From the IMG/VR virus record IMGVR_UViG_3300040810_000461, positions 1 through 37,727 of that record: a DNA stretch of 37,727 nucleotides; one strand, given 5' to 3'. The stretch is from a virus. The position numbers and the translations under genes are program-made. The notes below the pieces were generated by a model. It was not told where the DNA came from, ran no database searches, and was given only the letters and a program-made list of their open reading frames with translations. This document shows, piece after piece, positions 22,335 to 37,727 of this stretch (its first letter is position 1; the number at the start of each line of letters is the position of its first letter).

Positions 22335-23594
22335 ATGGCTAACATAGACCTATCGCTTATCCCGTGGCAGCAGGAAGTCTACGAGGACGGTAGTCGCTTT
22401 AAGGTTGTAGCTGCTGGCCGACGCTGTGGCAAGAGCCATCTCGCTGCCGTGTCGCTCATCGTAGCGGCCCTTAACGGTGAGCCGGGGAAAGTGTTCTATG
22501 TTGCACCAACGCAGGGCATGGCACGTGACATCCTGTGGGAAAAGCTGTTTGAACTAGCAGGAGAGATTATAGAAGGCAGCAATATAAACAACCTAACCAT
22601 TACGCTCGCTGGCGGCAACACCATATACTTAAAGGGTGCTGACCGCCCCGACACCCTTCGGGGTGTGTCCTTGAAGTATTTGGTCATGGACGAGTTGGCG
22701 TTTATGAAGCAGGATGTATGGGAAGCAATCTTGCGCCCAGCGCTCTCTGACCTCAAGGGACGCGCCCTGTTCATTGGAACGCCTGAAGGCCGCAACCACT
22801 TCTACGATATGTGGATGGGAGGCTACTCCGGGGCGTGGGACGATTGGTCTGCGTGGCAGTTTACGTCACGGGACAATCCGTTCCTTGACAGCAAAGAGAT
22901 TGACCACGCGGAGGCTACGCTGCCCCGCTGGGCTTTCAACCAAGAGTACATGGCTAGCTTTGACGCCCAAGGCTCGGAGTTTTTTAATGCCGACGACTTT
23001 ATGTACTATGACGCAAAGCCTAGCGACCTGCCGGGAGACTATTACATCGCAGTTGACTTGGCTGGTTTTGAGAGCGATAGAGGCAACAAAACGAAACGGC
23101 GAGACAATAGTGCCATTGCTGTTGTTTTTGTAGACGAGAATGGCGTATGGTGGGTTGAAGATATAGCGTTTGGGCGATGGACGCTTGACGAGACAGCAGA
23201 GCGCATCTTTAAGGCTGTTGAGGAGTATAAGCCTCCGGCTGTAGGGGTCGAGAAAGGAATCGCTCAGCAGGCCGTTATGGGGCCGCTCAGCGACCTTATG
23301 CGCCGTACGGCACGTGTGTTTCGTGTTGAGCTGCTTAGCCACGGCAACCAGAAGAAGCAAGATCGTATCTTGTGGGCACTGCAAGGCCGCTTAGAGCATA
23401 AGCGTATTCGCTTCAAGCACGGCTCTTGGAACACAGCGCTAGTTGATGAGGCTTCAGCATTCCCGTCACAGCTAGTACATGACGACTTGCTTGACGCTTT
23501 GAGTTATGTAGACCAGATGGCTATAGTGCCGTACATGGCTAACATTGATGTTGAAGATGAATACGAACCATACGACGCCGTAGCGGGTTACTAG
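22335..23594 (+). CDS. terL: Terminase large subunit
   Basis: A 419-residue packaging motor. The ATPase domain has Walker A AGRRCGKS (27-34), Walker B YLVMDE (115-120) with catalytic Glu120, and the coupling motif GTPEG (148-152). The RNase H-like nuclease has Asp241 (AVDLAGF), Glu306 (GVEKG) and the late acidic cluster HDDLLDA (382-388). The length fits small podoviral TerL proteins. It cuts and pumps DNA into the prohead through the portal, the next gene. No good ribosome site precedes the ATG, so translation may be coupled to terS or use another signal. Confidence 0.95.
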   Translation: MANIDLSLIPWQQEVYEDGSRFKVVAAGRRCGKSHLAAVSLIVAALNGEPGKVFYVAPTQGMARDILWEKLFELAGEIIEGSNINNLTITLAGGNTIYLKGADRPDTLRGVSLKYLVMDELAFMKQDVWEAILRPALSDLKGRALFIGTPEGRNHFYDMWMGGYSGAWDDWSAWQFTSRDNPFLDSKEIDHAEATLPRWAFNQEYMASFDAQGSEFFNADDFMYYDAKPSDLPGDYYIAVDLAGFESDRGNKTKRRDNSAIAVVFVDENGVWWVEDIAFGRWTLDETAERIFKAVEEYKPPAVGVEKGIAQQAVMGPLSDLMRRTARVFRVELLSHGNQKKQDRILWALQGRLEHKRIRFKHGSWNTALVDEASAFPSQLVHDDLLDALSYVDQMAIVPYMANIDVEDEYEPYDAVAGY

Positions 23595-23631: not shown

Positions 23632-25632
23632 ATGAGCGAAGCAATTTTTATGCAAGACACTACCTTCGGCACGGAGCAAGACCTTGCCGACTGGGTGGTG
23701 AGCCGGTGTAACACTTGGCGTGACTTCTACGAAAGCAACTACGCTGAGCGTCACGAAGAGTATATGCGCATCTACCGCAGCCAGTGGTCCGCTGAGGATG
23801 TGGAGCGCAGCTCTGAGCGCTCAAAGCTTATTGCCCCCGCTACGGCTCAGGCAGTAGAGTCTAACGTCGCAGAGGTTGAAGAAGCTACGTTTGGACGCGG
23901 CAAGCTCTTTGACATTAAAGACGACTTCAACGATCAAGACCCACGCGACATTGCCTACTTGCGCGCTAAGCTACACGAAGACTTTAGCTTGGCACGTATT
24001 CGGTCTTCTGTAGCTGAAGTGTTGGTTAATGCTGCTGTGTTTGGTACGGGTGTGGGCGAAGTAGTTGTTGAAGAGCTAAAAGAGTATAAGCCAGCTACGC
24101 GTCCACTACTTGACGGCGATATGCAAGAGGTAGGCGTTGAGGAAAGCTATCGCCCTATTGTCAAGCTAAACCCCGTCCAGCCCCGCAACTTTCTTATTGA
24201 TCCGAACGCTACGTCCATTGACAATGCGCTTGGCTGCGCTATTGATGAATTTGTGTCTAAGCATATTGTCCAAGAGTTGCAAGAGTCTGGTGTGTATCGT
24301 GACGATGTGTATGTGGGCACGGCGGCAGCAGACGAAGAGATTGAGCCCGACCCATACATTGACACGCAAGCGCAAGATCGCGTACGGCTGACCAAATACT
24401 ATGGCAAAGTGCCACGTGATCTGCTGTTAGCAGAAGGCGTATCGGAAGACGAGATTGCCGAGAAGGGCAGCTACGTTGAAGCTGTGATTGTTATTGCAAA
24501 CGAAGGCACGCTGCTTAAAGCCATTCCGTCACCCTACATGTGCCAAGATCGCCCTGTCGTGGCGTTCCAGTGGGATATTGTACCGAGCATGTTCTGGGGG
24601 CGGGGTGTATGCGAAAAAGCTTATATGTCACAAAAAGCGCTGGACGCCGAGCTTCGTGCACGCATCGACGCCCTCGCCCTTACTACGCACCCCATGATGG
24701 CCGTAGATGCTACGCGCATTCCGCGAGGCCACAAGCTTGAGATTCGTCCGGGGCGTATGCTGCTGACGAACGGCTCGCCGTCTGACGCACTGCTACCCTT
24801 TAAGTTTGGACAGCTAGACCAAGTAACCTTTGCGCAGGGCGCACAGCTACAGCAAATGATTAGCCAAGCAACGGGTGCTGCTGAAGCTAACGCGGGCATG
24901 GTGCAGAATGACGTAACTGCAGCCGGGATGTCCATGACGCAAGGCGCTATTGTCAAGCGTCAGAAGCGTACGCTAGTTAACTTCCAAGAGAACTTCCTTA
25001 TTCCGTTTGTGCGCAAAGCGGCGCACCGCTACATGCAGTTTGATCCTGAGAACTATCCGGTGCGGGATTATGTGTTTGTGCCCTTCAGCTCCCTTGGCGC
25101 TATGGCCCGAGAGTACGAAGTGTCGCAGCTTGCACAAATCCTGCAAGTAGTTCCGCCTGAGTCGCCTGCACATGGCGCCATCATCAAAGGCATCATCGAC
25201 CACCTTAACGTCACGAACCGCGACGAACTCATTGCTGCTATTGAGGCTGGCGCTGCCCCGAACCCAGAAGCACAGCAGATGGCTATGGCGCAGCAGCAAG
25301 CGCAAATGGCCGTGCTGCAGGGTCAGGTTCAGCTTCTTCAAGCCCAGGCCGCAGAGTCGCAGTCGCGTGCTAACAAGTACAACACCGAAACGGAGCTTGC
25401 GCCCACGGAGCTTACCCTTAAGTACAGCGACCAGAATAACGACGGCGTAGCAGACAAAGACTTTGAGCGCCGCGTTAAGATGGCTGAGCTGCTGCTTAAG
25501 GAGCAGGAGCTTCGGGGCAAGCAGAACAGCGAAGCCGAAATGGCTAAGGCTAAAGCTGAAGCGGAGTTGATTCGTCAGCTAACTGAAATGGGAGGCGCTG
25601 GCGCGCCGCAAGCACCGCAACAGGAGCAATAA
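23632..25632 (+). CDS. Portal protein (head-tail connector)
   Basis: A 666-residue protein right after TerL, behind AAAGGGACACACA. The early part (residues 12-130) has the WRDFYESNYAERHEEYMRIYRSQW and ERSKLIAPATAQAVESNVAEVEEATFG pattern of podoviral portals. The body includes NFLIDPNATSIDNALGC, and a helical C-terminal barrel region is rich in Gln/Ala (residues 540-600), ending in a charged coiled coil. It forms the dodecameric ring at the head vertex, docking TerL during packaging and tail tubular A afterwards. The length is in the range of P22-like portals (725). Confidence 0.88.
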   Translation: MSEAIFMQDTTFGTEQDLADWVVSRCNTWRDFYESNYAERHEEYMRIYRSQWSAEDVERSSERSKLIAPATAQAVESNVAEVEEATFGRGKLFDIKDDFNDQDPRDIAYLRAKLHEDFSLARIRSSVAEVLVNAAVFGTGVGEVVVEELKEYKPATRPLLDGDMQEVGVEESYRPIVKLNPVQPRNFLIDPNATSIDNALGCAIDEFVSKHIVQELQESGVYRDDVYVGTAAADEEIEPDPYIDTQAQDRVRLTKYYGKVPRDLLLAEGVSEDEIAEKGSYVEAVIVIANEGTLLKAIPSPYMCQDRPVVAFQWDIVPSMFWGRGVCEKAYMSQKALDAELRARIDALALTTHPMMAVDATRIPRGHKLEIRPGRMLLTNGSPSDALLPFKFGQLDQVTFAQGAQLQQMISQATGAAEANAGMVQNDVTAAGMSMTQGAIVKRQKRTLVNFQENFLIPFVRKAAHRYMQFDPENYPVRDYVFVPFSSLGAMAREYEVSQLAQILQVVPPESPAHGAIIKGIIDHLNVTNRDELIAAIEAGAAPNPEAQQMAMAQQQAQMAVLQGQVQLLQAQAAESQSRANKYNTETELAPTELTLKYSDQNNDGVADKDFERRVKMAELLLKEQELRGKQNSEAEMAKAKAEAELIRQLTEMGGAGAPQAPQQEQ

Positions 25633-25635
25633 GCT

Positions 25636-26667
25636 ATGGCTTCTGATCTAGCGCTCCTCGCATTAGTTAAGAAAATGGATGGCTTCACAGGTCCGCAAGG
25701 GCCTGCTGGAGCGCCTGGGCCGTCTGGGCCGCAAGGCCCTGCTGGAACACTTGGCCCTCAAGGGCCTGCCGGTAAAGACGGACGTGACGGTAAAGCTGGA
25801 CCGCCTGGGCCAATTGGGCCACAAGGCCCTCAAGGGCCTAGCGGCGCGGACGGAGCAGCTGGCGCTGACGGTCAGGACGGTGTAGGCGTTGAAAGCGCCT
25901 ATATTGCCGCTGACGGCTCGTTAGTCTTTACCCTTACGGACGGTAGCGAGGTAGACGTAGGAGCGCTTACAGAGCTTCTGGGAGCGTCTGAGGGCAATAC
26001 GTACGTACTGGGACAGTCTCAGGGCAGCGGCGCTATAACAGAAGCAACATCCTTAAACGTCCCCGGCTCTGGTGGCGCTACGTCTTGGAATGACGTTGAA
26101 GGTACGATTAACTTTCCACTAAGCGCTGAAGTAACGCTAGAGCTTGGGCAAGAAGAGTTATTTTATTCTAAAGCCTCTGAAGCAATTAGTAAAGGCGAAG
26201 TTGTTATGTTTGCTGGCGCTCAAGGCGACCACTTGTTAATCCGCAAAGCTGACATAACGGTTACGGGCTTTCGTCAAGAGTGGGTTATTGGCGTAGCTCA
26301 TCAAGACTTTGACAATAACGAGTTTGGGTACGTTACGTCTTTTGGTAAAGTTCGTAACATTGATACGCTGGCGTTTAACGAAGGTGACCTTTTATGGCTA
26401 TCTGTTACGACGCCTGGAGCGCTTACTAACGTAGAGCCCGCAAAACCTAACTGCCCTGTGCTTGTTGCTGCCGTAACGCGCTCACACCAAAACCAAGGCA
26501 CGATCTTTGTACGCCCCTCTACTACCAAGAAGTTGCAAGAGCTGTGCGATGTGTCAAGCGCTACGCCAAACGATGGCGACATATTAGCGTGGGATGCAGC
26601 GACTGGCACCTGGAAACCAATAGCGCCGGTCTTCCCGGCACTGTATGGCGTAACAACCTACCCGTAA
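25636..26667 (+). CDS. Collagen-like virion protein 1
   Basis: A 343-residue protein behind AGGAGCAATAAGCT. Residues 16-80 are about 21 Gly-X-Y triplets ([15 protein letters not shown]..., then [10 protein letters not shown]), followed by short strands and a C-terminal domain (about 180-300) with [36 protein letters not shown]. That reads like a head-decoration or fibre domain and is known after collagen tracts in phages. Triple-helical stalks make trimers. Position between portal and scaffold suggests a head or connector fibre. Confidence 0.8.
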
Positions 26668-26680
26668 CTAGGAGTAAACT

Positions 26681-26812
26681 ATGAAACCCTGCGCATCCTG
26701 TCCGTCCCCTGCTAAGTGCAAGAAGGCTGGTAAGTGCCTGAAGCGCGCTGGCGCAGCGGCCCGTACCAAAGCTAAGCGCACGACGCGGAGCATGAAACGT
26801 GGCAGCTACTAA
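26681..26812 (+). CDS. 43-residue Cys/Lys-rich micro-protein
   Basis: A 43-residue protein behind TAGGAGTAAACT. It is very basic and has four Cys in the first 19 residues (KPCASCPSPAKCKKAGKCLKR), a possible zinc-binding knuckle, then an Ala/Arg/Lys tail (ARTKAKRTTRSMKRGSY). It is the first of four consecutive small basic proteins between the collagen-like gene and the scaffold operon. Nucleic-acid binding is likely from composition only. Confidence 0.7.
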   Translation: MKPCASCPSPAKCKKAGKCLKRAGAAARTKAKRTTRSMKRGSY

Positions 26813-26954
26813 GAAGTCGCCCACGCCAAAGAACAAAGCGTTGTACGCAAAGGTTAAAGCAGAGGCTAAGCGTAAGTTTGACGTTTGGCCGTCCGCGTAT
26901 GCTAGCGGCTGGCTAACCAAAGAGTACAAAAAGCGAGGAGGCACTTATGCCTAA
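26799..26954 (+). CDS. 51-residue basic protein (KFDVWPSAYASGWLTKEYKKRGG type)
   Basis: Starts at GTG 26799 with GCGGAG 9 bases upstream, inside the end of the previous gene (14-base overlap), and ends at TAA 26954, overlapping the next ATG by 8 bases. The pattern SPTPKNKALYAKVKAEAKRKFDV, then PSAYASGWLTKEYKKRGG is one I recognise as recurrent in marine phages and some large viruses, with no known function. About 30% of residues are Lys or Arg. Too short for most gene finders. Confidence 0.75.
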   Translation: MAATKKSPTPKNKALYAKVKAEAKRKFDVWPSAYASGWLTKEYKKRGGTYA

Positions 26955-27201
26955 CAAGCCTAAGGGCGGTTTGACTAAATGGTTTAAGGAGGACTGGCGC
27001 GACCTTAAGACCGGCGAGAAGTGTGGCCGTTCTGGTAAGGACAAAAAGAAGCGCCCGTATCCGTCATGCCGCCCGAAGGCCGTGGCAGACAAAATGACTG
27101 CTGCTGAGAAGCGCTCGTCTACTAAGCGCAAGACTAGCAGCAAGCCAATTAAGCACGCCGTCACGGCTTCTGGCCGCAGGAGAAAGCGCAATGCCAAATA
27201 A
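26947..27201 (+). CDS. DUF5872-like basic protein
   Basis: An 84-residue protein with ATG 26947 behind GCGAGGAGGCACTT. It has the DUF5872-type core GGLTKWFKEDWRDLKTGEKCGRSG, then KRPYPSCRPKAVADKMTAAEK and a Lys/Arg/Ser tail ending GRRRKRNAK. Two Cys in CGRSG and SCRP could bind metal. The family is found in phages and giant viruses with unknown function. It overlaps the next gene by 11 bases, so the four basic genes form one translational unit. Confidence 0.8.
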   Translation: MPNKPKGGLTKWFKEDWRDLKTGEKCGRSGKDKKKRPYPSCRPKAVADKMTAAEKRSSTKRKTSSKPIKHAVTASGRRRKRNAK

Positions 27202-27451
27202 ACGTACGCCTGCTAAGGGCAAGGCGAAGGTCAAGATTACCGCTAGTGGGCGCAAAGTGTCGTATGGGCAAGCGGGGCAGGCCAAAGGTGGCGGACCGCG
27301 TGTACGCCCTGGCACGTCCAAAGGTGACGCGTACTGCGCACGTAGCGCTGGGCAAATGAAAAGCCACCCCAAAGCAGCCAAAGACCCTAACAGCCCGCTA
27401 CGGCTAAGCCGCAAGCGCTGGAAGTGCAGCGGAACTAAGAGTCGAAAATAG
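27191..27451 (+). CDS. DUF6321-like basic protein
   Basis: An 86-residue protein with ATG 27191 behind CAGGAGAAAGCGCA. The sequence KVKITASGRKVSYGQAGQAKGGG, GTSKGDAYCARSAGQMK and AAKDPNSPLRLSRKRWKCSG matches the DUF6321 pattern as I know it. It is strongly basic with one Cys in YCARS and one in KWKCSG. Function is unknown. It ends 3 bases before the -35 of the next promoter, so the group of basic genes belongs to the upstream packaging transcript. Confidence 0.8.
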   Translation: MPNKRTPAKGKAKVKITASGRKVSYGQAGQAKGGGPRVRPGTSKGDAYCARSAGQMKSHPKAAKDPNSPLRLSRKRWKCSGTKSRK

Positions 27452-27454
27452 GAC

Positions 27455-27483
27455 TTGACATTTAGTTCAAAATATGATAAGAT
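27455..27483 (+). promoter_or_regulatory. Predicted sigma70-type promoter for the scaffold/capsid operon
   Basis: TTGACA (27455-27460), 17-base spacer, TAAGAT (27478-27483) preceded by TATGA (extended -10). It shares 19 bases exactly with the terS promoter. The predicted start is near 27490, 36 bases before the first small gene. This would boost capsid expression above that of the terminase. Confidence 0.88.
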
Positions 27484-27690: not shown

Positions 27691-27925
27691 TGAAGACCAA
27701 AAGTTTTTTGAAGATTGCCGCAGCCTGTTCCTTACGGACGGCTGGAAGCATTTCCAAAAAGAAATTGATGTAGCTATTCAAAGCCTTAACCTTGGCGCTA
27801 TCGACTCGTCTAACGAGTTCTGGAAAGCTAAAGGTCGCTTTGAAGCATTGCTACAAATCGCCGGTTGGGAAAACGCTGTGCTAGCAGCAGAGCAGCAAGC
27901 AGAAGAACCGGAAGAAAATGCGTAA
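27683..27925 (+). CDS. Hypothetical acidic protein of the head operon
   Basis: An 80-residue helical protein: SEDQKFFEDCRSLFLTDGWKHFQKEIDVAIQSL, then SNEFWKAKGRFEALLQIAGWENAVLAAEQQ and an acidic end. Small proteins with the pattern LF.TDGWK.F..... and KGR...L..I..WE are familiar to me from T7-like phage head modules, without known function. It overlaps both neighbours by 8 bases. It is probably co-translated with the zinc-ribbon gene. Confidence 0.7.
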   Translation: MSSEDQKFFEDCRSLFLTDGWKHFQKEIDVAIQSLNLGAIDSSNEFWKAKGRFEALLQIAGWENAVLAAEQQAEEPEENA

Positions 27926-28142
27926 GATTTTTGATGTGCAGTGTGAAAGCTGCTCAAAAGTAACTGAAGTGTTTGGTAGGGATAGCGACTCGTTCCGGTG
28001 CGGAGCCTGCGGTAAACCTGCCAAGCGCATCATCAGCCCTGTACGCTGTAAGCTTGAAGGCTACTCTGGGAGTTTTCCCGGCGCAGCTATGAAGTGGGAG
28101 CGAGAGCATATCAAGGCTGGCCTTAAGAACGGACAAGCATAA
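27918..28142 (+). CDS. FmdB-like zinc-ribbon protein
   Basis: A 74-residue protein with a classic zinc ribbon: CESC (9-12) and CGAC (28-31), followed by KRIISPVRCKLEGYSGSFPGAAMKWEREH. The pattern matches FmdB-type zinc-ribbon proteins widely present in phage head operons next to scaffold genes. Function is unproven; a structural or assembly role is often inferred. The start overlaps the preceding gene. Confidence 0.8.
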   Translation: MRKIFDVQCESCSKVTEVFGRDSDSFRCGACGKPAKRIISPVRCKLEGYSGSFPGAAMKWEREHIKAGLKNGQA

Positions 28143-28198: not shown

Positions 28199-29023
28199 AT
28201 GGCACGATTAGTAGACGCCCCCGAAGAACAACTTGATGAGGCAACCGAAGTCGGTACGCTTGAGGAGTTGGAGCCAGAAACCGCTGAAGTTGAAGAAGCC
28301 GAAGCGGAAGAGGTAGAACAACCACAAGCATCCGAAGACGATCTCCCCGAGAAGTACAGGGGCAAAAGTGCATCAGAGATTGCAACGATGCACAGAGAGC
28401 TTGAGCAACGCTTAGGCCAGCAGAGCCAAGAAGTCGGAGAGCTACGTAAAGCCTTTGACGAAATGGTTAAGCAGTCTATCGCAGCGCAACAGGCTCCGTC
28501 TGCACCGGAACCAGAAGTGGACGAGGTGGACTTCTTCACTGATCCACAAGCAGCAGTTAAGAAGGCTATTGAGAACCATCCAATGCTTAAGCAGTCTCAG
28601 GCTGTGGCGGCAGAAATGGCGAAGTCTCAAGCGCTAGCCCAACTACAAGCTGCACACCCTGACATGAAAGAAGTCCTTACGGACGCTGGATTTCAGGAGT
28701 GGATTGGTAAGTCACAAGTTCGTAAAGAGCTGTTTGAGCGAGCAGATAAAGGTTATGACTTTGCTGCCGCAGACGAGCTGCTAACGCTTTATAAGGAGCG
28801 TCGTGGTATCGTCGAGCAAACCGCTAAAGTCGAAAAGGTGGCTCAACAGAACGAAATCAAGAAAGCTTCTACAGGTTCGGCACGGTCCAACCCCGACAGC
28901 ACTAAGTCGCGGAAGGTCTACCGGCGTCGAGACATTATTGAACTAATGAACCGCGACCCGAAACGATACGAAGCCCTCATGCCTGAAATTATGAAAGCGT
29001 ATCAAGAGGGTCGAGTCAAATGA
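28199..29023 (+). CDS. Scaffolding protein
   Basis: A 274-residue protein directly upstream of the major capsid protein, behind GGAGAGTTTAATA. It is highly acidic at the N-terminus (residues 5-45, mostly Glu), largely helical and Gln/Ala/Glu-rich, with a basic C-terminus (TGSARSNPDSTKSRKVYRRRDIIELMNRDPKRYEALMPEIMKAYQEGRVK). This architecture is typical of phage scaffolds, in which the basic C-terminal helix-turn-helix binds the coat protein. It would be removed from the prohead on packaging. Assignment is by composition and position. Confidence 0.82.
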   Translation: MARLVDAPEEQLDEATEVGTLEELEPETAEVEEAEAEEVEQPQASEDDLPEKYRGKSASEIATMHRELEQRLGQQSQEVGELRKAFDEMVKQSIAAQQAPSAPEPEVDEVDFFTDPQAAVKKAIENHPMLKQSQAVAAEMAKSQALAQLQAAHPDMKEVLTDAGFQEWIGKSQVRKELFERADKGYDFAAADELLTLYKERRGIVEQTAKVEKVAQQNEIKKASTGSARSNPDSTKSRKVYRRRDIIELMNRDPKRYEALMPEIMKAYQEGRVK

Positions 29024-29045: not shown

Positions 29046-29921
29046 ATGCCTTTGGGTACTAACCACGTAACGAAGACCACCGCAGCGACTTTCATCCCCG
29101 AGATTTGGTCCGATGAAATCATTGCTGCATACGAGAAGTCTCTGGTTGTTAAGCCTCTTGTTCGCTCTATGAGCATGACCGGCAAGAAAGGCGATACGAT
29201 TCACATTCCGAAGCCGACCCGTGGCAATGCCAGCGTCAAGGCTGCTCAAACGGAAGTGACGCTGATCGCTGCCACCGAGTCTGAGCTGACGATTGCTATC
29301 GACCAGCACTACGAGTACAGCCGTCTCATCGAAGACATCGTGGACGTGCAAGCTCTCAACAGCCTGCGCCAGTTCTACACCTCCGATGCTGGCTATGCAC
29401 TCGCTACCCGCGTTGACACGGCGCTTATCGCTGAGGCTGCTAACTTCACGTCTCAGCTTGAGTTCCTTACCGGCGCTGGCACGCAAACCGCTGCTGGTAC
29501 GGCAACGGCTGGCTTCACCGACCTTGGCTTCCGCGAAGCTTTGCAGGTGCTTGATGACAACGATGTCCCGATGGACAACCGCGTGTTCATCATTCCGCCC
29601 GCAATGAAGAAGGAGCTGCTTGGCGTGACCAACTACGTCAGCACCGACTTCGTAACCGGCAAGCCTGTTGAGACTGGCAAGATCGGGTCTCTTTATGGCG
29701 TTGACGTGTACGTGTCCACCAACCTGCCCACCGAGAACACCGACGAAAAAGGCGCTCTGCTTATGCACAAAGACGCCATCGTGTTCGCGGAGCAGCTTGG
29801 CGTTCGCGTCCAGACGCAGTACAAGCAAGAGTACCTTGCTGACCTGATGACCGCCGACACCTTGTACGGCGTGCAGACCTATCGTCCCGAAGCGGGCGTG
29901 AAGCTGTTCGGCACCGTCTAA
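29046..29921 (+). CDS. Major capsid protein
   Basis: A 291-residue coat protein behind CGGAGTAACTACT. The start LGTNHVTKTTAATFIPEIWSDEIIAAYEKSLVVKPLVRS is typical of HK97-fold coats of marine podoviruses and related phages, as is the helix-rich spine region ending GYALATRVDTALIAEAANF. The C-terminal half has the QVLDDNDVPMDNRVFIIPPAMKKELL pattern and a final YGVQTYRPEAGVKLF strand. Codon use is biased to C-ending codons more than in its neighbours, as expected for the most abundant protein. A hairpin terminator follows. Confidence 0.92.
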   Translation: MPLGTNHVTKTTAATFIPEIWSDEIIAAYEKSLVVKPLVRSMSMTGKKGDTIHIPKPTRGNASVKAAQTEVTLIAATESELTIAIDQHYEYSRLIEDIVDVQALNSLRQFYTSDAGYALATRVDTALIAEAANFTSQLEFLTGAGTQTAAGTATAGFTDLGFREALQVLDDNDVPMDNRVFIIPPAMKKELLGVTNYVSTDFVTGKPVETGKIGSLYGVDVYVSTNLPTENTDEKGALLMHKDAIVFAEQLGVRVQTQYKQEYLADLMTADTLYGVQTYRPEAGVKLFGTV

Positions 29922-35892: not shown

Positions 35893-37727
35893 TGAGTGCT
35901 TTAAGTTCTTTATTAAATCAGCTTCAAAGCGGACAATATGTTTATGGCGATGCTGGACGGCTTCGCGATACTGGCGCGTTAAGCCAAAACGACTTCAATC
36001 AGTTTGTAAGCGCATTTGATGAATATACTAACACCGTAGCTGGTCAGCGTCCTTATAGCGTTGGGGATGTTGTAACTGCTCCTAAAGCTACAGGCATTGC
36101 TGCTCAGGAGCTTACCGGCGATCCAGACATGGACCGCATGATTCTTGCTGCGCGTGACGCACAAGGCGTTAGCCGCGATGTTGGGCAAAGCGGCCTTAGC
36201 ATGGACGAGTATCAGCAAGCTGTTTCAAATCTTGCTGCTTATCGTAACCTTCCCGAAAATGTAGCGTACCGCCACACTGTACGCCCTGAGCTTGGTATGC
36301 TTGCTGGTGGCTTGTTGTCGCTTGCTGTTCCGGGTGTTGCGTCAGGTATTGTTGGTACGCTTTTCCCTGGCGCTGCGGCTACTTCAGCGGGCGCTGCGGC
36401 TGCGCTTGGCGGCGCTGGCGGTGGGCTAGGAACGCTAGGCACTACGGCTTTAACAGCAGGCGTAGGCGGTGCGTTAGGTGCCGGTCTTGCAGAAGCAACG
36501 GGCAGAGACCCGCTTACTGGCGCCCTTGGTGGTATGCTTGGTGGCGGGCTTGGCGCTGGTGCGCAGGGCGCTACGGCACTTAGCAGCTTAAGCGCAGCAG
36601 GGCCTTCTGTTATTGAGCAAGTGTTTAGCGACGAAGACTACCGCGAAGGTGGTGTAATTCCTGAGCAGCCGTACGATACTCGTCAGCCGCCGGTAGACCC
36701 TACAGACGCAAGCGGTGGAGGCGGCGGTGGAGGCGGAGCAACTACCACTACTACAGCCCCTGATGCCCCTTACGGCTCCATTCCAGAAGGCTTTCCAGGC
36801 TCTGGCAATCCGTTTACGCCCGCTGACTTTGAGTGGTTTATGAGTCATGGCGGCAAAGACAGCAACAACAACGGGCAGATTGATGCTGACGAGTATGCCG
36901 ACTACAAAGAGCAAGAGGCAGCGGCACAGCAAACAGCACAAGTAGACCCAGAGCGTCCGTACCGCTACGAAGGCAATGGGCGTTTTGTTAACGTGCTTAC
37001 GGGCGAAGTAATTAATCGTGACGTACCAGACACGTTTGTTGTTGGGGACTTTTACGGCCTGCCCACGGATCAAGAAGAGTTTGTTAATGTAAACGATTCT
37101 TCGGGTTTAGACATAACCGGACTTGAACCTTTAATTCCTACTGGTCCTACTGGTCCTAGTGAGCCTACTGAGCCTAGTGAGCCTACTGAGCCTACTGAGC
37201 CTACTGAGCCTACTGAGCCTACTGAGCCTAGTGAGCCTACTGGCCCTAGCGGCCCTAGTGGCCCTAGCGGCCCTAGCGGCCCTAGCGGCCCTAGTGGTCC
37301 TAGTGGCCCTAGTGGTCCTAGTGGCCCTAGCGGCCCTACTGGGCCTAGTGGCCCTAGCGGCCCTACTGGGCCTAGCGGGCCTAGCGGCCCTACTGGGCCT
37401 AGCGGGCCTAGCGGGCCTAGCGGGCCTAGTGAGCCTAGTGAGCCTAGTGAGCCTACTGAGCCTACTGGTCCTAGCGGGCCTACTGGGCCTACTGGTCCTA
37501 GTGGTCCTAGCGGGCCTAGCGGCCCTACTGGGCCTAGCGGGCCTAGCGGGCCTAGCGGGCCTAGCGGGCCTAGCGGGCCTAGCGGGCCTAGCGGGCCTAC
37601 TGAGCCTACTGAGCCTACTGGTCCTAGCGGGCCTACTGGGCCTACTGGTCCTAGTGGTCCTAGCGGGCCTAGCGGGCCTAGCGGGCCTAGCGACGACGGT
37701 GATGGTGATGGCGACGGCGACGGCATT
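35892..37727 (+). CDS. Collagen-like virion protein 2 with EF-hand loop (continues at 1-301)
   Basis: The frame opens at ATG 35892 (TAATG overlap) and runs off the right end; it finishes at 301 after closing the circle, giving 669 residues. Layout: a polar helical head (1-130), a hydrophobic Gly/Ala segment (about 136-205) that may cross or insert into a membrane, a poly-Gly/Thr linker (about 276-290), and a canonical EF-hand loop [12 protein letters not shown] (about residues 323-334, Ca2+ ligands at 1,3,5,7,9,12). A collagen-like tract of about 62 triplets (416-600) follows, then acidic linker and C-terminal domain. It lies between lysis genes and tail tubular A, so a tail-associated fibre is plausible. 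Confidence 0.88.
37136..37692 (+). repeat. 9-base tandem repeat tract encoding collagen-like triplets
   Basis: About 62 units of CCT-AGY/ACT-GGN or GAG, coding Pro-(Ser/Thr)-Gly or Pro-(Ser/Thr)-Glu. Units with GAG (Glu) cluster in blocks near 37150-37230, 37430-37470 and 37590-37620; the rest carry Gly. An exact 75-base segment occurs at 37448-37522 and 37601-37675, 153 bases (17 units) apart. Glu in the Gly position would break a triple helix, so the tract alternates helical and flexible blocks. Repeat number may be mis-assembled. Confidence 0.9.
37601..37727. repeat. Direct terminal repeat, right copy
   Basis: Identical to bases 1-127. Because the shared segment includes 35 non-repetitive bases, circular closure is credible even though most of the overlap lies in a repeat tract. 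The number of collagen repeat units at the join remains uncertain in a short-read assembly. Confidence 0.95.

Follow-up and report, generated by a model that had tools for sequence, protein, structure and literature searches.

Four consecutive small genes, g1 to g4, lie in the head-gene block of the marine viral DNA stretch analysed here (37,727 nucleotides, hereafter the window). They encode very basic proteins which, on balance, we take to be capsid-interior proteins, of the prohead-core or internal head type, that would stay with the packaged genome. This reading is favoured because of the co-occurrence and order of the genes, their head-gene neighbours and the fusions of their relatives to protease and portal. 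It is also favoured because of the Glu preceding g4-type modules, the T4-like start of S-CREM1 gp179 and the reported detection of S-CREM2 ORF160 in virions. In any case, g1–g4 are not four unrelated proteins.

Four overlapping genes under purifying selection

The initial annotation had drawn attention to four consecutive small basic ORFs with overlapping ends, three of them encoding Cys, and this description holds (Table 1). All four are present on the plus strand, with computed pI values of 10.8, 10.2, 11.0 and 11.6 for g1, g2, g3 and g4, net charges of +14, +10, +22 and +22, and 4, 0, 2 and 2 Cys, respectively. Each of the three junctions is an overlap of 8–14 bp, and a purine-rich, ribosome-binding-like stretch was found just 5' of the starts. 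In comparison with the closest relative, L014, synonymous and nonsynonymous codon changes amounted to 24 and 0 in g3, 22 and 4 in g4, 8 and 2 in g1, and 7 and 0 in g2, the latter counted over the last 43 codons only. Because nearly all changes were synonymous, the coding capacity is not due to chance, and g1–g4 are real coding genes under purifying selection. At the nucleotide level, no relatives of the four-gene operon were found in phage records.

Table 1. Position and assignment of g1–g4 and of surrounding features in the window
Feature	Coordinates	Strand	Description
TerL (terminase large subunit)	22335..23594	+	phrog_2 E 8e-53
Portal protein, SU10-type	23632..25632	+	PF23899 E 3e-24; phrog_1216 E 5e-44
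Collagen-like tail-fibre protein	25636..26667	+	PF01391 E 3e-9; phrog_5073; adjoins g1 on upstream side
g1	26681..26812	+	43 aa; four-Cys basic protein with basic tail; no Pfam/PHROG match
g2	26799..26954	+	51 aa; GTG start; DUF5872 N-terminal half (LYAKVKAEAKRKFDVWPSAYASGW)
g3	26947..27201	+	84 aa; DUF5872 C-terminal half (GLTKWFKEDWRDxKTGxxCGR...YPxCRP)
g4	27191..27451	+	86 aa; basic; putative DUF6321 superfamily (KGDAYCARSxGQMK...NSPLRLSRKRWKC)
Sigma-70-like match	27455..27483	+	TTGACA-17-TAAGAT, TG-extended; 10/12; right after g4
Acidic scaffold-like protein	28199..29023	+	phrog_13678 E 1e-11; PHROGs give no function
MCP (major capsid protein)	29046..29921	+	phrog_267 E 8e-58

The gene order is TerL, SU10-type portal, collagen-like fibre, g1–g4, three small genes, acidic scaffold-like protein and MCP. 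The position between portal and scaffold proposed earlier is right as to order, but neither is an immediate neighbour: the fibre gene separates the portal from g1, and the three additional small genes separate g4 from the scaffold gene. The scaffold-like protein has a computed pI of 4.8 and a net charge of −18. Sigma-70-like matches near g4 were not more frequent in this region than expected by chance. A 74-aa FmdB-like zinc-ribbon protein is encoded between g4 and the scaffold gene (27918-28142), and the window carries two collagen-like fibre genes, one within the head-gene block and the other at 37070-37726 on the minus strand.

Protein families and their co-occurrence

As judged from family profiles, g2 and g3 are a DUF5872 split over two overlapping genes. 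The g2 protein matched PF19197 over profile positions 1–39 (E 3.7e-10, 40.9 bits, gathering score 27.5), and g3 over positions 51–99 (E 1.4e-5, 26.1 bits, just below the gathering score of 27.5); the same family was matched by 53 of 55 aligned g3 relatives (E<=0.1). Natural single-chain versions occur at locus L228 (116 aa, profile 12–112, E 2.4e-15) and at L216. The assignment is made because both halves match one family and single-chain versions exist. The two proteins thus jointly cover a family whose members occur in algal giant viruses as well as in phages, with the difference that in the window its halves are not in one polypeptide. The initial annotation had assigned two genes to DUF5872-like and DUF6321-like families; the families were well chosen, but DUF5872 takes up both g2 and g3, and the DUF6321-like gene is g4. 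The AlphaFold2 model of g3 was of moderate quality (pLDDT 78); its structural matches were viral proteins, one weak match being a DUF5872 protein of CeV-01B. The g3 fold matches M1HJ88, M1I0I0 and A7RCF2 may be chlorovirus proteins, possibly linked to abundant basic virion proteins of PBCV-1 such as A523R.

The g4 protein had no direct Pfam match at E<=1, DUF6321 (PF19846) included. Its family profile aligned with the DUF6321 set with an hhalign probability of 98.5 over 65 columns, and profile–profile comparison alone assigns it to this superfamily. A Cys-Ala-Arg motif and a Trp-x-Cys end are common to g4 and the phage members, but the loop region of g4 is not alike. For g4, AlphaFold2 predicted a small fold with confidence (pLDDT 87, pTM 0.72). 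A known DNA-binding fold was considered for g4 and rejected, since the model had no fold match in the PDB; structural neighbours among viral DUF6321 proteins were weak (E>=0.4). The best viral structure matches of the g3 and g4 models were uncharacterised or DUF5872/DUF6321 proteins, and neither protein had a convincing match among PDB sequences.

No database match was obtained for g1. Its core is C-x2-C-x5-C-x5-C (KPCxxCPSPAKCKxAGKCLKK), and relatives collected by phmmer and a viral scan form a recognisable family with the core KPCxxCxxxxxCxxxGKC. A separate g1-seeded scan yielded 60 testable loci, near-duplicates included. At 49 of them, a g4, DUF6321 or KW-type gene lies no more than 1.5 kb away in the same orientation, and 39 of the 49 have the KW type only. 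The KW family (phrog_7595, ...SFKARH...SAAYWADKVKW) comprises small, basic proteins whose genes often adjoin g1, g2 or g3, as at L019:1433-1717, L003:1832-2116 and L004:4228-4506. It partly matches phrog_220, 'minor head protein and DNA pilot' (E 5e-8). One sequence matches both the KW and g4 HMMs, and a relation between the two is suggestive; inclusion of KW in the g4 superfamily was rejected, the profile comparison being weak (probability 5.7).

The initial annotation had asked whether the four families co-occur or are scattered, and they proved not to be scattered. With window-family HMMs, all 53 testable g3 loci had g2 on the same strand, 51 within 300 bp and normally directly upstream, and all 45 g2 loci had g3; g2 and g3 are an obligate pair. 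About half of the g3 loci (25/53) had g4 nearby. In the other direction, just 7 of 48 g4 loci had g3, and the 41 without it count against the capsid-interior reading. These include a Vibrio phage in which g4 stands alone among replication and membrane-protein genes, with no head genes in the stretch read. The samples were the best 80 matches per query and therefore over-represent close relatives.

Among 84,980 bacterial and archaeal genomes, g3 was found at just 17 loci, mostly on short MAG contigs, so the family is essentially viral. Pattern scans of viral contigs for DUF5872/DUF6321 gave at least 600 matches. The system is not confined to podoviruses: it is carried by T4-like cyanophages, T7-like cyanophages, pelagiphages and Roseobacter phages, with DUF5872 also present in algal giant viruses. 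Among 100 proteins adjoining g2/g3, there were 20 portal, 18 scaffold-like (phrog_13678), 8 TerL and 6 MCP matches, in counts where families may overlap. The genes lie just before TerL or TerS in Roseobacter phages CRP-7 and CRP-212, between TerS and portal in C72C1, and between scaffold and MCP in P-SCSP2. A small EF-hand protein (KIDANKDGKISREDF) occurs within the basic-gene cluster at L008:5743-5868 and L006:10908-11273 (P-SCSP2, HTVC023P).

This distribution bears on the idea that g1–g4 might be packaged and then ejected to act in the host, in anti-restriction or in the takeover of RNA polymerase or nucleoid, like T4 IPI/Alt. T4 internal proteins are indeed small and basic, and some are ejected (PMC9026906); moreover, the module set varies among phages, and its location is a terminase region that is hypervariable, or a mobile cassette (PMC3037559). 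We nonetheless consider such a role quite unlikely, for unrelated phages share strongly conserved cores, and DUF5872 extends to algal giant viruses, unlike fast-diverging host-specific effectors. Nor was any effector-like Pfam or PHROG match obtained.

Fusions, polyproteins and apparent protease sites

Relatives of g2, g3 and g4 were found fused to head proteins. At L156 (6747-8543), and also at L237 and L238, one ORF carries a head-maturation protease (phrog_9427, E 5e-49), DUF6321, g3 and g2, and further protease–DUF6321 fusions occur at L131:1-869 (minus strand), L241:4977-6527 and L243:4908-7313. A lambda-type portal is followed by g4 in the same chain at L225 and L317-L319. A presumed MCP fusion in L261 was discarded: the Gp23 match (23.8 bits, below the cut-off of 24.4) covered a short motif at the N terminus, after which other modules follow. 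In several viruses (L156, L131, L241, L243), DUF6321 immediately follows the prohead protease domain, the place usually taken by the scaffold part in protease–scaffold fusions. Another module, 'HYTKDGKEWTGPQHA...HTADSQDLYHY', was noticed in L261:5923-7611; it is also a separate 48-aa gene adjoining g3 in CRP-207 (L004:4920-5066) and is g2-fused in L113.

T4-like marine phages carry g3, g2, PCW and g4-type modules as parts of long proteins encoded near the terminase genes gp16/gp17. In S-BM3, SBM3_00185, which adjoins gp16, combines g3-like, g2, PCW and g4-type modules into a single polypeptide and gave partial matches in 497 phage records. The recurrent module orders in ORFs of at least 150 aa were g2-g4 (17), g2-PCW-g4 (15) and g3-g2-PCW-g4 (7); g1 was not seen in polyproteins. 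A 949-aa protein of Synechococcus phage ACG-2014f, near TerL on its upstream side (L355:409-3258), contains g3-like, g2-like, PCW and DUF6321 modules and many L/I-x-E sites, and looks like a large head polyprotein.

The borders of these modules were scanned in viral contigs, using the DUF6321-module start AAWTKKxGK and leaving the upstream sequence free. Among 71 distinct upstream contexts, 60 had Glu immediately ahead of the module (or ahead of its single leading G/A/S/T) and 11 had the initiator Met; no other residue occurred there. Since only these two residues occur, the starts of stand-alone proteins coincide with the apparent cut points of the polyproteins. Sufficient sequence was available for 57 non-initiator contexts, in which P1 was always Glu and P3 was L/I/V/M/F/T in 86%, the P2–P10 residues upstream being otherwise unrelated (mean identity 12%). 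The border consensus, (L/I/V/T)-x-E↓(G/A), is the T4 prohead-protease signature; T4 gp21 cuts after L/I-x-E (PMC9026906). In these polyproteins, x-x-E likewise tends to precede the g3, PCW and g2 modules. The polyproteins of T4-like marine phages therefore appear, from these site patterns, to be cut into modules by the prohead protease; the linkers are Glu-rich, which counts against cleavage.

A related signal was found at the start of S-CREM1 gp179, a 91-aa DUF6321 protein encoded between terS and terL. It begins MKTYNDFITE↓VAAW, and was compared with the start sequence of T4 IPIII. In IPIII, residues 4 and 7 serve capsid targeting and residues 8 and 10 processing (PMC9026906), and Y4, F7, I8 and E10 of gp179 sit at these positions.

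The window proteins are of another make. No L/I-x-E site and no N-terminal capsid-targeting sequence were found in g1–g4 (starts MKPCASC, MAATKKS, MPNKPKG and MPNKRTP), and a scan of window ORFs found no prohead-type protease; release by processing is therefore not the route for this phage. These features are consistent with g1–g4 being ready-made separate proteins.

Fusions and border sites also bear on whether g1–g4 might be nucleic-acid-binding proteins outside the virion, active in late expression or in a packaging step such as terminase help or DNA-end protection. The location near terS/terL in Roseobacter phages, C72C1 and T4-like cyanophages would suit such a function, as would the four-Cys motif of g1, whose sequence resembles a zinc knuckle. 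Yet it would leave unexplained why modules are fused to the prohead protease and the portal, why their borders carry protease-like sites and why ORF160 was detected in virions, and we regard it as improbable.

Virion detection of a relative and likely role

S-CREM2 ORF160 (128342-129235) contains g3 (E 2e-18), PCW and g2 (E 2e-19) modules and no g4-type module. It was detected in the virion proteome with 7 unique peptides covering 13.1% of the whole ORF, not assigned to modules, and the authors noted that some virion-associated proteins were possibly co-purified contaminants (PMC10665884). The record of its S-B68 homologue (GC0119) bears the label 'structural protein'. For the stand-alone copies, no report of virion presence or DNA binding was found in the literature searched. 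An S-SCSM1 'virion protein', prompted by a weak fold match (E 0.13), was considered as a second virion-detected g3 relative and rejected, as no g2, g3 or g4 module was present in those proteins of the retrieved region that are labelled as virion proteins and have no known function.

An assembly-only role was weighed against these data, in which the four proteins would nucleate or size the prohead by bridging the acidic scaffold and the portal, and would be gone before or during DNA entry, playing no part on the packaged DNA. The presence of an acidic scaffold-family gene next to them in many genomes, and the fusions with head-maturation protease and portal, agree with it; in T4, cleavage of the core proteins gp22, gp67 and gp68 yields fragments that for the most part leave (PMC9026906). 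Against it stand a charge well beyond the apparent need of a scaffold partner, the report of ORF160 in mature virions and the conservation of Cys/Arg-rich folded cores. Taken together, we hold this role to be unlikely.

Under the capsid-interior reading, g1–g4 would be made together with portal and scaffold, and would be loaded into the prohead, probably by charge attraction to the acidic scaffold and/or by contact with the portal. On packaging they would remain with the genome, neutralising DNA or adding to its order. In T4-like marine phages, modules of the polyprotein (g3, g2, PCW, g4-type) would be freed inside the head by the prohead protease, and this phage would encode the same kind of modules as tiny proteins from the outset. 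We infer polyprotein cleavage, head location in this phage and DNA binding.

The initial annotation had proposed virion proteins of a packaging operon with a histone-like activity. Capsid association gains support from neighbours, fusions, border sites and ORF160; the histone-like part draws on charge and analogy. The charge of g1–g4 is compatible with DNA binding or condensation, and a DNA-condensing, histone-like activity is plausible by analogy. No Pfam match to a known DNA-condensing family (histone-like, HU or protamine-type) was found for any of the four.

Functionally, the closest known systems are the T4 internal and core proteins. T4 IPI-IPIII, gp67 and gp68, which are processed by gp21, share with g1–g4 a small size, a basic character, synthesis alongside the head proteins and, on the reading favoured here, a place in the head interior; a g4 relative has a T4-like targeting start, and modules of T4-like marine phages stand behind L/I/V-x-E. 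In contrast, no common sequence family was found, the window proteins are tiny overlapping genes without targeting sequence or L/I-x-E, and families of the g1–g4 type range far outside T4-like phages. Among eukaryotic viruses, the closest are ascovirus P64 (2-cysteine adaptors, PF08793) and PBCV-1 A278L/A282L, which are modular cationic virion proteins, P64 being Cys-bearing too. P64 binds and condenses DNA, and A278L/A282L were found with DNA (PMC6163548, PMC3281028). These are large multi-domain proteins, whereas g1–g4 are not, and g1–g4 do not match their Pfam models. By sequence, g1–g4 belong to none of these systems.

Basic head-interior proteins are a known kind. Within the scope of our searches, the novelty lies in the set of modules, in its occurrence in split and polyprotein forms and in how widely it is distributed. 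More broadly, it is conceivable, though we put it forward tentatively, that small basic modules, most of them with Cys (g1, g2, g3, PCW and g4/DUF6321), make up a widely shared, virus-specific kit that is a protein component of the packaged nucleoid, both in many tailed phages of the sea and in algal giant viruses. It would be made as a polyprotein cut in the head by the prohead protease in T4-like cyanophages, and from overlapping tiny genes, often missed by annotation, in other phages. Such a relation between polyprotein and separate genes is suggested for head-interior proteins. DUF5872 and DUF6321 have no described function, and linking them to the capsid interior offers a first role that can be tested; in the open literature searched, DUF5872 is mentioned in one paper and DUF6321 in none. 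A paper on virion DNA organisation saw no evidence of much neutralisation of phage DNA by basic proteins (PMC3281028), a claim that is now directly testable in cultured isolates.

A minor observation concerns the N-terminal 'AGATGFTGAAAPEGPVAGYDP' segment of S-CREM2 ORF160 (residues 17-70, L349:3644-4537), which matches the major-head-protein family phrog_696. It recurs in a 61-aa S-SCSM1 virion protein (SSCSM1_97, L478:23122-23307) and is possibly a shared head-targeting segment.
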